Shown in pieces: positions 5,343 to 56,254 of a stretch of DNA of 56,254 nucleotides. This DNA is from Calditrichota bacterium (GTDB lineage: Bacteria > Electryoneota > Electryoneia > Electryoneales > Electryoneaceae). A program made the position numbers and the translations under genes. The notes under the pieces were generated by a model. That model did no database searches. It saw only the letters and a list, made by a program, of their open reading frames with translations, and was not told where the DNA came from. The stretch's first letter is position 1. Each line of letters opens with the position of its first letter. The stretch covers positions 702-56,955 of the forward strand of contig JAANWZ010000044.1 in the NCBI GenBank assembly GCA_018263585.1, given 5' to 3'.

Positions 5343-5690
5343 AGTGTCATCCTGAACCCGCAGCGCCGGTCTGTTTCAGCGCGCCCCGCAGTGTCATCCT
5401 GAACCGCGCCGCCGTTTGTTCTTGTTGAAGCGGCGCGAGTGAAGGATCTACCGGCAAGAACGTCCCGGAGGTGGTATTGATATGACCGTTGGGCGGAGTA
5501 TCCGGTAGATCCTTCACCCTTCGCGCCAAACAGACGCCGCTTCGGGTTCAGGATGACACAATCCGCCTTTTTTGGTCGAGATCCTCCACCCTTCGCGCCG
5601 AAACGGACCGGCGCTTCGGGTTCCGGATGACACAGGTGGGGCGCCAAACTGATCGCGCTTCGGGTTCATGATGACGCGGACGGCGCGCTG
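5343..5690. repeat. cluster of REP-like GTCATCCTGAACC...GGATCT units in both orientations
   Basis: gtgtcatcctgaacc at about 5344 and 5391; gtagatccttcacccttcgcgcc...gggttcaggatgacac at about 5505-5560; a further inverted copy at about 5580-5635. Confidence 0.75.
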
Positions 5691-7080: not shown

Positions 7081-7105
7081 ATTGCCGGTCGGTAGAAGGA
7101 GATTC

Positions 7106-7257
7106 ACGCAAACCTGATTCTCGTACGTACCACGTAGGGGTGTGAGGTGAATAGCGTGCGGCTTCAGCCGCACGGGAAGGGAAATAGACGCAAACCCGAT
7201 TATCGCGGCACCCCGTAGGGGTGTGAGGTGAATAGCGTGCGGCTTCAGCCGCACGGA
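7106..7257. repeat. left transposase-flanking repeats (two units)
   Basis: cgtaggggtgtgaggtgaatagcgtgcggcttcagccgcacgg twice, with cacgcaaacctgattctcgtac / gacgcaaacccgattatc. Confidence 0.85.
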
Positions 7258-7322: not shown

Positions 7323-7769
7323 ATGAAATCGTATAGGCAAACACTGGTTCACATCGTGTTCGCGACACGTCACCGTCAACCGGTTTTATCGAAAGAAAAC
7401 CGCGAACGGCTGTACCGTTATATCTGGGGCATTTGCAGACAGAAAGAATGCCGTCTCCACCGCATTGGCGGATACGACGAACACGTCCACATTCTTATCA
7501 GTCTTCATCCTTCAATATCTCTCGCTAACTTCGTGCAATTGATCAAGGGGCGTTCCTCGCATTGGATAACCGACGAATCCGTATTTCCCGGGTTTGTTCG
7601 GTGGCAGCGAGGTTACTCCGCGTTCAATGTGTGTTATAAAGAGCGTTCCAGGGTAGTCGAATATATTAAGAACCAGGAAGAGCATCATCATTCTGTCTCG
7701 TTTTTGGAAGAATACAGGGATCTGTTGGAGGACGCGGGCTTTGAGATGGACGAACGTTACCTTCCGTAG
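7323..7769 (+). mobile_element. IS200/IS605-like Y1 transposase (REP-associated RAYT type)
   Basis: VHIVFATRHRQPVLS; HUH-like HVHILI; QRGYSAFNVCYKERSRVVEYIKNQEEHHHSVSFLEEY. Confidence 0.9.
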
Positions 7770-7867
7770 CGCCGCCCCTACAGGGCGGGGGATCGATGGT
7801 TATTCCGATTCGTGTGGCTGAAGCCACACGCTATCTATCTAAAGCCCGTACGGGGCTGGCGAAGATA

Positions 7868-7965
7868 TACGCAAACCTGATTCTCGTACCCGCCCCGTAG
7901 TGGTGTGCGGTTAATCGCGTGTGGCTTCAGCCGCACGGGAAGGGAAATAGACGCAAACCCGTTAT
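7868..7965. repeat. right transposase-flanking repeat (direct copy of 7106-7205)
   Basis: acgcaaacctgattctcgtac...ggcttcagccgcacgggaagggaaatagacgcaaacccg. Confidence 0.85.
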
Positions 7966-10930: not shown

Positions 10931-11017
10931 TGTGCCCCTGTGACTGCGTGCAGCGATGTCGCAGGGTTCATTCACCGGTGGATGAGCCGCGGTGACCTTC
11001 GGTCCCCGCGGGCATGC
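10931..11017. repeat. two palindromic modules joined by the ACCGGT hinge
   Basis: gcccctgtgac...gatgtcgcaggg / tcattcaccggtggatga / gccgcggtgaccttcggtccccgcgggcat. Confidence 0.8.
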
Positions 11018-19088: not shown

Positions 19089-19171
19089 GCTTCCAGCTCG
19101 TGCCCGCGTTTGCTTGCAATCGCGGACCTGATCTCGTGCCCGCGTTTGCTTGCAAAACGCGGCTCGGAGAC

Positions 19172-19326
19172 GTGCCCCTGTGACAGGCCGGCGAAGCCGG
19201 GATGTCGCAGGGCTCATCGACCGGAGGATCAGCCGCGCGGGCAAGCCCGCACGGGCAGGACGGGTTGTTTGTACATCACCGGTTGATCAGCCGCTGTGAC
19301 GGCCTGCGGCCCGTCCCCGCGGGCAT
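19172..19326. repeat. three palindromic modules joined by two hinges
   Basis: gcccctgtgacaggccggcgaagccgggatgtcgcaggg - ctcatcgaccggaggatcagcc - gcgcgggcaagcccgcacgggc - tgtacatcaccggttgatcagcc - gctgtgacggcctgcggcccgtccccgcgggcat. Confidence 0.85.
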
Positions 19327-20589: not shown

Positions 20590-20696
20590 GCCAATCGGTG
20601 ATTGCGAGCGGGTCGGATCCGCGGTGACGCCGTTCGGGACGTCCCCGCGGGCATGTGTCGGGGTGTGCCTGCAACCCGTGGGACGGATGGAACCAC

Positions 20697-21015
20697 GGGG
20701 ACGCTTGCTCGCATCCGGTTATCCCTTTGGCTCAACCGGGAGCAATATCGCGGGAGGCAAGCGTGTCATTCTGACCGAAGCCCGACGTCCGTTTGTCGGG
20801 CGAAAGGAAGAAGGTCCAGGTCCGATAAGAGTGAAGGATACCGTGAAACTCGAGATATGACCCTTGGATAACTTGGACCTTCTTCACCCGCCTTCACGCG
20901 GACAGACGCGTGGAGCCGGGTTCAGGATGACGCCTCTGCCGCCCGGATGTGCTTCAGAGTCCAGTCCAGGCACATGGCTGCGCGAATGGCATAACCGGAT
21001 GCTCGCAAGCGTCCC
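20697..21015 (+). repeat. MITE-like nested inverted-repeat element
   Basis: ggggacgcttgctcgcatccggttat...gctca...tcattctgaccgaag...gaagaaggtccag...ttggaccttcttc...gggttcaggatgac...gcataaccggatgctcgcaagcgtccc. Confidence 0.9.
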
Positions 21016-27302: not shown

Positions 27303-27348
27303 ATAATCAAACGGTTGTCTGGCGAGGTTCGATCACCCGTTGTATGAG

Positions 27349-27371
27349 CCGCGGTTGCGAGCAACCGCGGG
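27349..27371. repeat. palindromic module CCGCGGTTGCGAGCAACCGCGGG
   Basis: copies at 36842-36864, 49831-49853, 56224-56246. Confidence 0.9.
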
Positions 27372-27726
27372 CCTGTAGCAGTGTCATCCTGAACAAGCGC
27401 GGCATTTGTGTGCCGCGCGCAGTGAAGGATCTCGAGAACTGACGGGGTATGAAGATGGGTCTGTGGATGAGGTTTCAACCCCGGTGGATGGGGTTTCGAC
27501 CCCGGCAGGGGTCGCAGGTGGATAGCCCCGGGCGTGAGCCCGGGGAGCCGCGCAGCGCCAACAATCGGAACCCCGATGGGATGATACATGATTGTTATTA
27601 TTGAAGATAACTGTCGCCCCTGTGGGGTTGACGGAAAACGTATCGGGGAGACGCGGGCGGCTCCCATCCCGGGGCTTACGCCCCGCGCTATGCGGATGTC
27701 GCCGCTTCGCGGCTGAAGGGGACGAC

Positions 27727-30056: not shown

Positions 30057-30399
30057 GGGGACGCTTGCGAGCAGCCGGTTGTCCCATTGGCTCAGCCGGG
30101 AGTAGTATCGCGGGCGGCAAAGGAGTCAGTCTGACCGAAGCCCGACGTCCGTTTGTCGGGCGAAGTGAAGTTTATCCTGAACGAAGTGAAGGGAAGGTCC
30201 AGGTTCGACAAGCGTGGAGGATACAATGAAACTGGTGATATAGCCCTTGGATAAGCTGGACCTTCTTCACCCGCCTTCACGCAGACAGACGCGTGAAGGC
30301 GGGTTCAGAATGACGCCTCTGCCGCGCGGATGTGCTTCAGAACCCGGTCCATGCACGTGGCTGAGCTAACGGCATAACCGAATGCGAGCAAGCGTCCCC
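30057..30399 (+). repeat. MITE-like nested inverted-repeat element (343 bp)
   Basis: ggggacgcttgcgagcagccggttgtcccattggctcagcc ... ggctgagctaacggcataaccgaatgcgagcaagcgtcccc. Confidence 0.9.
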
Positions 30400-36690: not shown

Positions 36691-36841
36691 GCCCGCTCGT
36701 TGTTCAAGCCCGTACTCATGTCTTCGCTTCCGCGGCATCTCTTAGAGTAACGAGTTCCGAGTAACGAGTGTCGAGACGGCCTGTGCCCCGCGCCCGCTTG
36801 CAGGCCGGGCTGCATTCGCTGTGAATACACCGTCTGGTCAG

Positions 36842-37090
36842 CCGCGGTTGCGAGCAACCGCGGGCCTGTTTGGATTAGACCGCACGGCCGGTACTGTTCC
36901 GTGGGATCAGCCGCGCTGACCGCTGCGCCGTCCCCGCGGGCATTGTCCGGCGCACTCCGGGGACGCTTGCCAGCAAGCGTCCCCTTCCCATTCCACCCCT
37001 GTCGAACCTGGACCTTTCCTTCACTGCGTTCAGGATAAACTTCACTTCGCCCGGCAAACCGCCGCCGGGCTGCGTTGAGAATGACGCGGT
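36842..37090. repeat. compound mosaic of four repeat types incl. 26-bp GGGGACGCTTGCCAGCAAGCGTCCCC palindrome (36959-36984)
   Basis: CCGCGGTTGC module, GCCGCGCTGACC..GTCCCCGCGGGCAT module, 26-bp palindrome, and a GGACC..TTC..CAGGATAA/GAATGACGCGG module. Confidence 0.85.
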
Positions 37091-43308: not shown

Positions 43309-43326
43309 CCTTGACTAAAGTCAAGG
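43309..43326. repeat. CCTTGACTAAAGTCAAGG palindrome (same family, opposite orientation)
   Basis: reverse complement of 27285-27302, also followed by a hinge and other modules (43340-43451). Confidence 0.95.
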
Positions 43327-43574
43327 GCAGGGGTATGAACGGCTCATCCACCGGTCGAATTAACCCTGCGACATCCCGCATTCGCTGCGCTACGGCTGGC
43401 TGTCACAGGGGCACGGGCGAGATGAGACCCGAGGCTGAAGCCCCGGGCCACCAGCCGGCGACCCCGGGCTACTTCTGGCCCCCCAGCTCGCCCGATCTGT
43501 CCCGGCCTGTTGATCCGCGCGCATTTTTTCGTAGATTTGTCTCTTGCAGTGATCGACGAGGGCGGGGCACGGCT

Positions 43575-48904: not shown

Positions 48905-49198
48905 TTCAGAGGTCAGCTTGCCGCATCTGCGCGGGAGGGAAACTGACTTGCTCACGGGAACGGTTGGACTCGCACATGCCCGCGGGAACGGCCTCCTTTG
49001 TACATGCCCGCGGGGACGGCCGGAACGGCGTCACCGCGGTTCAACCAATCCTCGCGCAACCGCGGGGCTGTTCAGCCGCGGTGATCCTTGCGGATCCCCG
49101 CGGGCATTTTCACCTGAGGCCCACGGTGTAAGGGACCTGGCTGGCGAATCGCAGCGGGAATCAGATACGCGACAACGTGAACGACGTGGAGGAGACTG

Positions 49199-49780
49199 TT
49201 GATGAATGCGAGACTGACAGTTGTATTGTTCGTCGCGGCCGCGCTGCTGGTCGGCTGCGGCGGCGGTGAACAGGCCGAGGAAATGGCGCAGGAGACCGGC
49301 GAAAGTGTGGAGCAGGCCGCCGGCGAACAGCAGGCCGCCGGCGAACAGCAGGCCGCCGGCGAACAGCAGGCCGCCGGCGAACAGCAGGCCGGGGAGATGT
49401 CGGACGAGATGGCGATGCCGGATCTCGAGGAGATGATGTTCGCGCAGGGCCCGCAGGGGATGAAATACGCGGTGCTGCAGGAGGGCGACGGCCCGGAGAT
49501 CGACAACGGTGACCTGGCGAAAGTCCACTACACGGGCTGGTTCGAGAGCAGCGGCAACCTGTTCGAAAGTTCGCGCAAGCGGGACAAGCCGTTCGAGTTC
49601 ACAGTCGGCTCCGGCCAGGTGATCAAGGGCTGGGATCTCGGAGTCGCGGAGATGCGCGTCGGCGAGCGCCGCCTGATCGTGCTCCCGCCGGAACTCGCGT
49701 ACGGCGAGCGCGGCTATCCCGGCGGCATCCCGCCGAACAGCACGCTCGTGTTCGATGTGGAAGTGCTCGGCAAGGAGTAG
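49199..49780 (+). CDS. FKBP-type peptidyl-prolyl isomerase lipoprotein
   Basis: lipobox LLVGC; KVHYTGWFESSGNLFESSRKRDKPFEFTVGSGQVIKGWDLGV; LAYGERGYPGGIPPNSTLVFDVE. Confidence 0.93.
   Translation: MMNARLTVVLFVAAALLVGCGGGEQAEEMAQETGESVEQAAGEQQAAGEQQAAGEQQAAGEQQAGEMSDEMAMPDLEEMMFAQGPQGMKYAVLQEGDGPEIDNGDLAKVHYTGWFESSGNLFESSRKRDKPFEFTVGSGQVIKGWDLGVAEMRVGERRLIVLPPELAYGERGYPGGIPPNSTLVFDVEVLGKE
49313..49390 (+). repeat. 18-bp coding tandem repeat (4 units plus 6 bp)
   Basis: (caggccgccggcgaacag)x4 + caggcc, encoding (QAAGEQ)n. Confidence 0.95.
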
Positions 49781-49830
49781 GCGGGCGGCAGAGAGACGCC
49801 GCGCACGTTCAGGGTGACATTCACTGCAGG

Positions 49831-49909
49831 CCCGCGGTTGCACGCAACCGCGGCTCATCCACCAGTGGGTGCACGGCCGGGAAGGGGACGCTTGCTGGCA
49901 AGCGTCCCC
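49831..49909. repeat. CCCGCGGTTGCACGCAACCGCGG module, hinge, then 26-bp GGGGACGCTTGCTGGCAAGCGTCCCC palindrome
   Basis: 49831-49853 module; ctcatccaccagtggg hinge; 49884-49909 palindrome. Confidence 0.9.
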
Positions 49910-51802: not shown

Positions 51803-52017
51803 GCAGCCCTCATCCCTCGCGGGTGTTACGAAAAACACCGGCCGCGCGTTCCGCAACCGATGTTCCGCTCCTGATTCGCGCGCCGGTCGGATCAACCGCG
51901 CGGGCGGCAAAGAACAGCTTCTGCCGAGCCGCGGTGACGGCCTTCGGCGCGTCCCCGCGGGCATGGCAAGCAATGTGCCCCTGTGACAGCGCGCAGCGAT
52001 GTCGCAGGGCTCGCTGC

Positions 52018-52337
52018 GGGGACGCTTGCGAGCATCCGGTCATCCCCTTGGCTCAGCCGGGACAAGTATCGCGGGTGGCAAAGGAGTCATTCTGACCGAA
52101 GCCCGACGTCCGTTTGTCGGGCGAAGGGAAGAAGGTCCGAGTTCAACAAGGGTAGAGGGTATAATGAAACTCGAAAAACAGCCATTTGGTAAGCTGGACC
52201 TTCTTCACCCGCCTTCACGCAGACAGACGCGTGAAGCCGGGTTCAGAATGACTCCTCTGCCTCCCGAATGCGCTTCAGAATCCGGTCCATGCACGTGGCT
52301 GAGCGAACGGCATAACCGAATGCGAGCAAGCGTCCCC
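52018..52337 (+). repeat. MITE-like nested inverted-repeat element
   Basis: ggggacgcttgcgagcatccggtcat...ggctcagcc ... ggctgagcgaacggcataaccgaatgcgagcaagcgtcccc; abuts another module at 51975-52011. Confidence 0.9.
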
Positions 52338-56080: not shown

Positions 56081-56254
56081 CATGCCCGCGGGGACGGGCC
56101 GCAGGCCGTCACCGCGGCTGATACAACGGAGCATGAGACCCGAGGCTGAAGCCCCGGGCCACCCATTCTCTTGACTTACCTTGTGATTATCCTTGACTAA
56201 AGTCAAGGGCAAGTCTGTACAGGCCCGCGGTTGCTCGCAACCGCGGCTGATACA
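56081..56254. repeat. four-module intergenic mosaic downstream of trxB
   Basis: 56081-56120 CATGCCCGCGGGG..ACCGCGG module; 56133-56162 ATGAGACCCGAGGCTGAAGCCCCGGGCCAC; 56191-56208 CCTTGACTAAAGTCAAGG; 56224-56246 CCCGCGGTTGCTCGCAACCGCGG. Confidence 0.9.

Follow-up and report, generated by a model that had tools for sequence, protein, structure and literature searches.

The palindromic joints in the intergenic mosaics of this genome consist of the inner tags of two hairpin modules standing back to back, and the centre of each palindrome is the junction between two modules. Directly visible in the DNA are the shared tag, the fixed spacing, the module-specific half-hinges, the bracketing of RAYT genes, the extragenic position and the distribution of the modules. 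As a whole, the observations are very probably explained by modules that are REP elements and by mosaics that are doublets of the BIME/REPIN kind. The modules are identified as REP elements because families d and k in this genome, and family E in a genome of the same family, bracket RAYT genes.

The window, that is, the whole stretch of 56,254 nt under analysis, spans positions 702–56955 of contig C105 in a 2.85 Mb genome (G000; 165 contigs, 92% complete). Together with 80 further stretches from this genome it forms a sample of 1.04 Mb with a GC content of 66%. The neighbouring aminotransferase finds its best matches in FCB-type uncultured genomes, unnamed MAGs at 67–73% protein identity, followed by Candidatus Electryonea clarkiae (phylum Candidatus Electryoneota; 64%) and then by LCP-89, Calditrichaeota and others. 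Comparisons across the phylum used 39 genomes including this one, and searches for the hinge were controlled with the reversed pattern or sequence and with 100 shuffles of the window.

De novo k-mer counting over the 1.04 Mb recovered the modules of the preliminary description, all of whose quoted palindromes and hinges are present in the sequence, together with several more. Its six-module vocabulary holds in that all six recur, but the full set is larger, with E, g, k, h and j recurring too. At least nine hairpin families (a, b, c, d, e, E, f, g and k) are recurrent in the intergenic DNA of the sample, at 29–162 copies each, and families h, r and j were catalogued in addition. The hairpins of the added families are CCCGGGGC-AAG-CCCCGGGCCACC for E, CCTTGACT..AGTCAAGG for g and CCGCGCTTG..CAAGCGCGGGCACGAG for k. 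Family d has 158 hairpins genome-wide and none in the 38 other genomes of the phylum.

The modules are predominantly extragenic. By a simple codon-usage gene prediction, which makes these fractions rough, 3–16% of module bases lie inside predicted genes, compared with 77% of all bases in the sample; the value for b is 43%, this family being loosely defined and its catalogue including false positives within genes. Density peaks between convergent genes, at 3.4 modules per kb versus 1.9–2.1 elsewhere. The hairpins are stable when folded as DNA, paired modules fold as separate hairpins, and modules occur as tandem arrays and in both orientations.

Beside its stem each module carries an inner tag, about 10 nt long and close to GGTGGATSAR, with a TSAG/TSAA tetranucleotide in it; the outer ends are near KGCCC or GTGGCC. 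The tetranucleotide is dominant in c, d, e and E. The only copies with GTAG are two k modules next to the RAYT gene on contig C81, and the tag of the k copies scattered through the genome is not clear.

The hinge is strongly enriched. Its 16-nt core CATCCACCGGTGGATG (≤3 mismatches) has four matches in the window against 0.28 expected, a count reached by none of the 100 shuffles, and the half-hinge CACCGGTGGATSAG (≤2 mismatches) matches 141 times in the 1.04 Mb against three in the reversed control. The palindrome TSATYNACCGGTNRATSA occurs at 18 sites genome-wide and is absent from the 38 other genomes of the phylum, and the reversed pattern gives zero. Of the 116 strong half-hinges that have a catalogued stem nearby, 105 abut it exactly; in the reversed control, one lay near a stem.

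The spacing of the modules gives the anatomy. Where two modules within 60 nt face each other with their tags, exactly 20 nt separate the stems in 46 of 133 pairs, and gaps of 19–21 nt account for 62/133 of these pairs, as against 4/56 of those facing with their outer ends and 13/161 of direct pairs. The sequence of a half-hinge tracks its own module, 8.6 standard deviations above shuffles, and modules that have no partner mostly keep their own half-hinge only. It is because of this spacing, the own-module half-hinges and the single halves at partnerless modules that the palindrome centre is placed at the junction of two modules. Dependence of the half-hinge on the partner within a module class was not detectable (26 of 300 shuffles scored as high), and no compensatory change between the two halves was found beyond column composition.

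These results bear out the earlier proposal that the hinge marks exact module boundaries, and they redraw part of its picture. The hinge is palindromic and does lie between modules, as had been said, but it is the joint of two module ends and not a free linker. The interval first singled out, 19172–19326, reads exactly as a(−), hinge, b(+), half-hinge and c(+). Full palindromes stand at the hinge positions of Table 1 (the one before a at about 43343–43363), with a degenerate form between c and e, but the sites listed near 19270–19292, 27330–27350 and 36829–36842 are single half-hinges of one module each. The joint unites 13 family combinations at 18–21 nt, and 13 to 15 overall.

Table 1 Modules and hinges in the window (positions from the first letter of the window)
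Feature	Position	Strand	Description
module a	10932..10966	-	catalogue
full 20-nt hinge	10967..10986		joins a and c, TTCATTCACCGGTGGATGAG
module c	10987..11015	+	catalogue, DNA fold
two k modules	19097..19162	-	k is the family bracketing the RAYT on contig C81
module a	19172..19212	-	REP-like hairpin CCCTGTGAC..GTCGCAGGG, outer end GTGCCCC; DNA fold
full 20-nt hinge	19213..19232		inner tag of a abutting inner tag of b, CTCATCGACC/GGAGGATCAG
module b	19233..19254	+	CCGCGCGGGC..GCCCGCACGG, one C/A stem mismatch; DNA fold
single half-hinge	19281..19290	+	GGTTGATCAG, inner tag of the c that comes next
module c	19291..19326	+	CCGC(G/T)GTGACGG..CGTCCCCGCGGGCAT
module d	27349..27376	+	half-hinge ahead at about 27339-27348
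module d	36842..36869	+	half-hinge ahead at about 36832-36841; f(-) 32 nt leftward
module g	43309..43333	+	CCTTGACTAAAGTCAAGG
hinge before a	43343..43363		left half, then outward a 3-nt stem remnant CGG, then g
module a	43364..43414	+	catalogue
module e	43427..43452	+	ACCCGAGGCTGAAGCCCCGGGCCACC
same-family tag-facing pair, rare	c(-) 49004-49039 + c(+) 49076-49107		gap 36 nt, not 20
module d	49826..49853	-	d is the family bracketing the RAYT on contig C160
hinge	49854..49871		CTCATCCACCAGTGGGTG; no recognised module as right-hand partner
module c	56082..56117	-	catalogue
degenerate 20-nt hinge	56118..56137		joins c and e, CTGATACAACGGAGCATGAG
module e	56138..56163	+	catalogue

Several other repeats share the window. 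A 300-nt repeat occurs at 20696–20995, 30079–30378 and 52017–52316, the later copies being 84% and 65% identical to the first, and a wider alignment of 20616–21015 with 51926–52336 begins at a c module. An 18-nt tandem repeat of the GCCGGCGAACAGCAGGCC type lies within an open reading frame at 49280–49412, and short GGATGGGGTTTCGACCCCGGT-type repeats were seen at 27460–27520 and in two other stretches (L071 and L098), where they are in tandem.

A profile search of the genome for Y1_Tnp gave four matches, two of which pass the 80-bit cut-off of the RAYT model NF047646 (REP_Tyr_transpos), on C160 (81.4 bits) and C81 (91.3 bits). Both RAYTs carry the HUH motif HVHL, a YIHxNP motif (YIHGNP on C160) and the catalytic tyrosine. 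Upstream of the C160 gene stand three inverted d modules and downstream of it two more d copies, with half-hinges facing the gene (CACCGGTTGATGAAG and GACCGGTTGATGAG). The C81 gene is bracketed by inverted k modules whose tag side points toward it, and the inner edge of two of these modules reads GTAG. Families d and k, at least, thus belong with RAYT transposases in this genome, and in both units the gene takes the position of a hinge. In a genome of the same family (G004), the hairpins on both sides of a RAYT are identical in sequence to the core of E, which has just two further copies there versus 65 matches in G000. The description of the modules as REP-like is thereby supported, with at least three families concerned. 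This assembly, which is 92% complete, yielded no RAYT for a, b, c, e, f or g.

Across the phylum, relatives of the RAYT occur in 17 of the 39 genomes, and many of them lie between inverted hairpins whose outer ends, GGGTGGC or GTGCCCC, are of the same kinds as those of e/E and a. The type of outer end clusters on the RAYT tree (0–1 of 500 shuffles as low).

Two further transposases were considered and set aside. The TnpA inside the window (7323–7769) exceeds the IS200/IS605 cut-off, gave no scan match to the REP model and has hairpins of its own, not modules a–k, on either side; it was rejected as the cognate transposase. Its flanks are 99-nt direct repeats (7100–7198 and 7863–7961) that hold a GCGGCTTCAGCCGC hairpin with GAATAGC ahead of it. 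The second IS200-type TnpA, on C14, adjoins a different array of hairpins (TTCATCCCCTTCGGGGATGATCAG; L033:1500–1852) and was rejected as the module transposase. The arms of this array, TTCATCC/GGATGA, resemble the arms of the hinge.

The joint unites different families almost without exception. No same-family pair was found among 65 pairs at 18–21 nt (9.9 expected), and with 22 nt allowed there are two among 67, the other 65 being hybrid. Among all inverted pairs, 6 of 188 are of the same family, against 38 of 160 direct pairs (Fisher P = 6 × 10⁻⁹). Direct same-family neighbours are common, so that it is inverted symmetry, and not proximity itself, that is avoided. This contrast fits the loss of long palindromes, which would be the natural explanation for the scarcity and has already been suggested for REP heterodimers in other systems (PMC3733652). 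The missing same-family pairs could in part be an effect of short-read assembly, as for 22 of the 67 hinge doublets a sequence end is no more than 300 nt away.

Family h, GTGTCATCCTGAAC-[variable stem]-GTGAAGGATCT, is found at 5346–5557 and 27383–27435 of the window, with 94 forward and 100 reverse matches genome-wide and a few in four other genomes (G005, G006, G034 and G035). Its inverted pairs have linkers mostly of 42 or 55–58 nt and different stems, with no same-type pair among 21 typed pairs (7.1 expected). It follows the same mixed-pair rule but is not a hinge system.

Under the preferred reading, each REP ends at its own inner tag, and where two REPs lie tag to tag, the tags abut and so form the 20-nt palindromic hinge. 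The hinge doublet would then resemble a gene-less derivative of a RAYT-bearing unit. The RAYTs, as single-strand HUH transposases, may spread the REPs, with new copies landing at the tag ends of existing REPs or remaining as gene-less doublets, and same-family inverted doublets may be rare through loss of long palindromes during replication. Block pairs with and without an extra module are many within the genome; the mosaics are too mixed for these to prove insertion, and the fetched stretches of relatives (67–73% identity at the aminotransferase) hold almost none of the modules. A more speculative extension, in our view rather unlikely, is that a single RAYT or a small number of them serve many unrelated hairpin families in trans through the shared inner tag and insert new REPs precisely at existing tag ends, which would make the mixed strings a product of self-targeted assembly.

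The alternative that survives best, possible though less probable than not, is that a small number of two-module composites arose a single time and were later amplified as whole units, with no ongoing assembly behind the variety. Some joints do look like such composites: b–d (33–36 nt) and c–g (43–45 nt) have conserved linkers and lengths of their own, and the a–g and g–E junctions recur at several loci, the arrangement of g, CGG remnant, hinge and a at 43343–43363 being found again in L035 and L080. At the 20-nt hinge, however, hairpin sequence is not significantly linked to the partner, with 36, 142, 410 and 136 of 500 shuffles as high for a, d, E and b, respectively, although numbers are small. 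This absence of association fits repeated formation of pairs, whether by REP insertion at a tag end or by exchange.

The hinge could also be read as a selectively maintained site, either an operator that binds a dimer or a target of a nucleoid protein, with the flanking hairpins incidental. Its two-fold symmetry and constant length of 20 nt would suit such a site, and binding of host proteins by REP/BIME repeats is known (PMC2817692). We regard this as improbable: partnerless modules mostly keep one half alone, half-hinges also occur at the REPs flanking RAYTs, and the halves do not co-vary. Only slight credence is given to modules acting as RNA-level terminators or mRNA stabilisers under selection on transcripts and not mobile; their extragenic position, their greater density between convergent genes and their stable hairpins agree with it, but Rfam gave no match in the window, and the bracketing of RAYTs, the tandem arrays and the occurrence in both orientations speak against it.

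Exchange of whole modules at the hinge by a site-specific recombinase, the mechanism favoured in the preliminary description, is very improbable: the hinge is palindromic and of fixed length, unites many combinations and joins modules whose sequence does not predict the partner, but it varies with no matched change between its halves, each half follows its own module, and a genome-wide search for the tyrosine type found just two recombinases, the usual number for XerC/XerD, neither of them tied to the hinge. The proposed search for an integrase or RAYT was productive for the latter, with two RAYTs bracketed by d and k, but yielded no hinge-dedicated enzyme among the tyrosine recombinases. One palindromic hinge (C113:21227–21244, in L139) is separated by about 110 nt from the matched part of a tyrosine recombinase gene; at such a density of modules this proximity is expected and probably due to chance. 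Independence of the partner is predicted by swapping and equally by repeated independent insertion, and end-to-end insertion of REPs explains the combinations as well. Exchange is compatible with the data but not needed, and it is simpler to suppose that one REP inserts next to another at the tag end.

Compared with known systems, the modules have the abundance, the extragenic position and, for at least three families, the RAYT association of REP elements. As in the REP/RAYT systems termed REPtrons (PMC3733652, PMC8266576), they are short extragenic hairpins with a tag at the side of the stem, inverted copies bracket the gene and several families share one genome; the RAYT here also passes a curated NCBIfam cut-off. 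Unlike in those systems, the tag is mostly TSAG/TSAA and not GTAG, it is embedded in a longer GGTGGATSAR common to many stem families, and most families are without a RAYT in this assembly. IS200/IS605 elements belong to the same HUH superfamily as RAYTs, and one such TnpA lies in the window, but with other hairpins at its flanks.

The doublets resemble REPINs (PMC3116915) in their inverted arrangement, the set length of the spacer and their proximity to RAYTs. REPINs, however, are doublets of one REP type that form one long hairpin, in which compensatory changes are common, whereas the partners here are of different families and their halves do not co-vary; the doublets are thus not REPINs as defined. 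Their organisation is that of BIMEs, with REPs in alternating orientation and conserved linkers, here the 20-nt tag-facing joint and other fixed gaps. In the terms of PMC3733652, the tag corresponds to the REP ‘tail’, and tag-inward doublets would be TT dimers. The same study reports that heterodimers are preferred in most GTAG and CGTC families, a preference with no obvious explanation, and that hybrid dimers of different families make up about 10% in S. maltophilia. Here, by contrast, hybrids are essentially the sole kind at the 20-nt joint (65/67), in at least 13 combinations through one palindromic joint.

This is, then, a RAYT/REP system in an uncultured lineage, of a known kind and notable for how many hairpin families share one tag and for their almost exclusively mixed pairing at one palindromic joint. 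The spread of REPs and the preference for mixed over same-family dimers are still debated matters in the field, and this genome lends itself to a clean test of them: it has nine families with a single shared joint, and its same-family pairs are common in direct and nearly absent in inverted orientation. In addition, RAYT/REP systems with traceable REP types are now placed across an uncultured FCB-type phylum.
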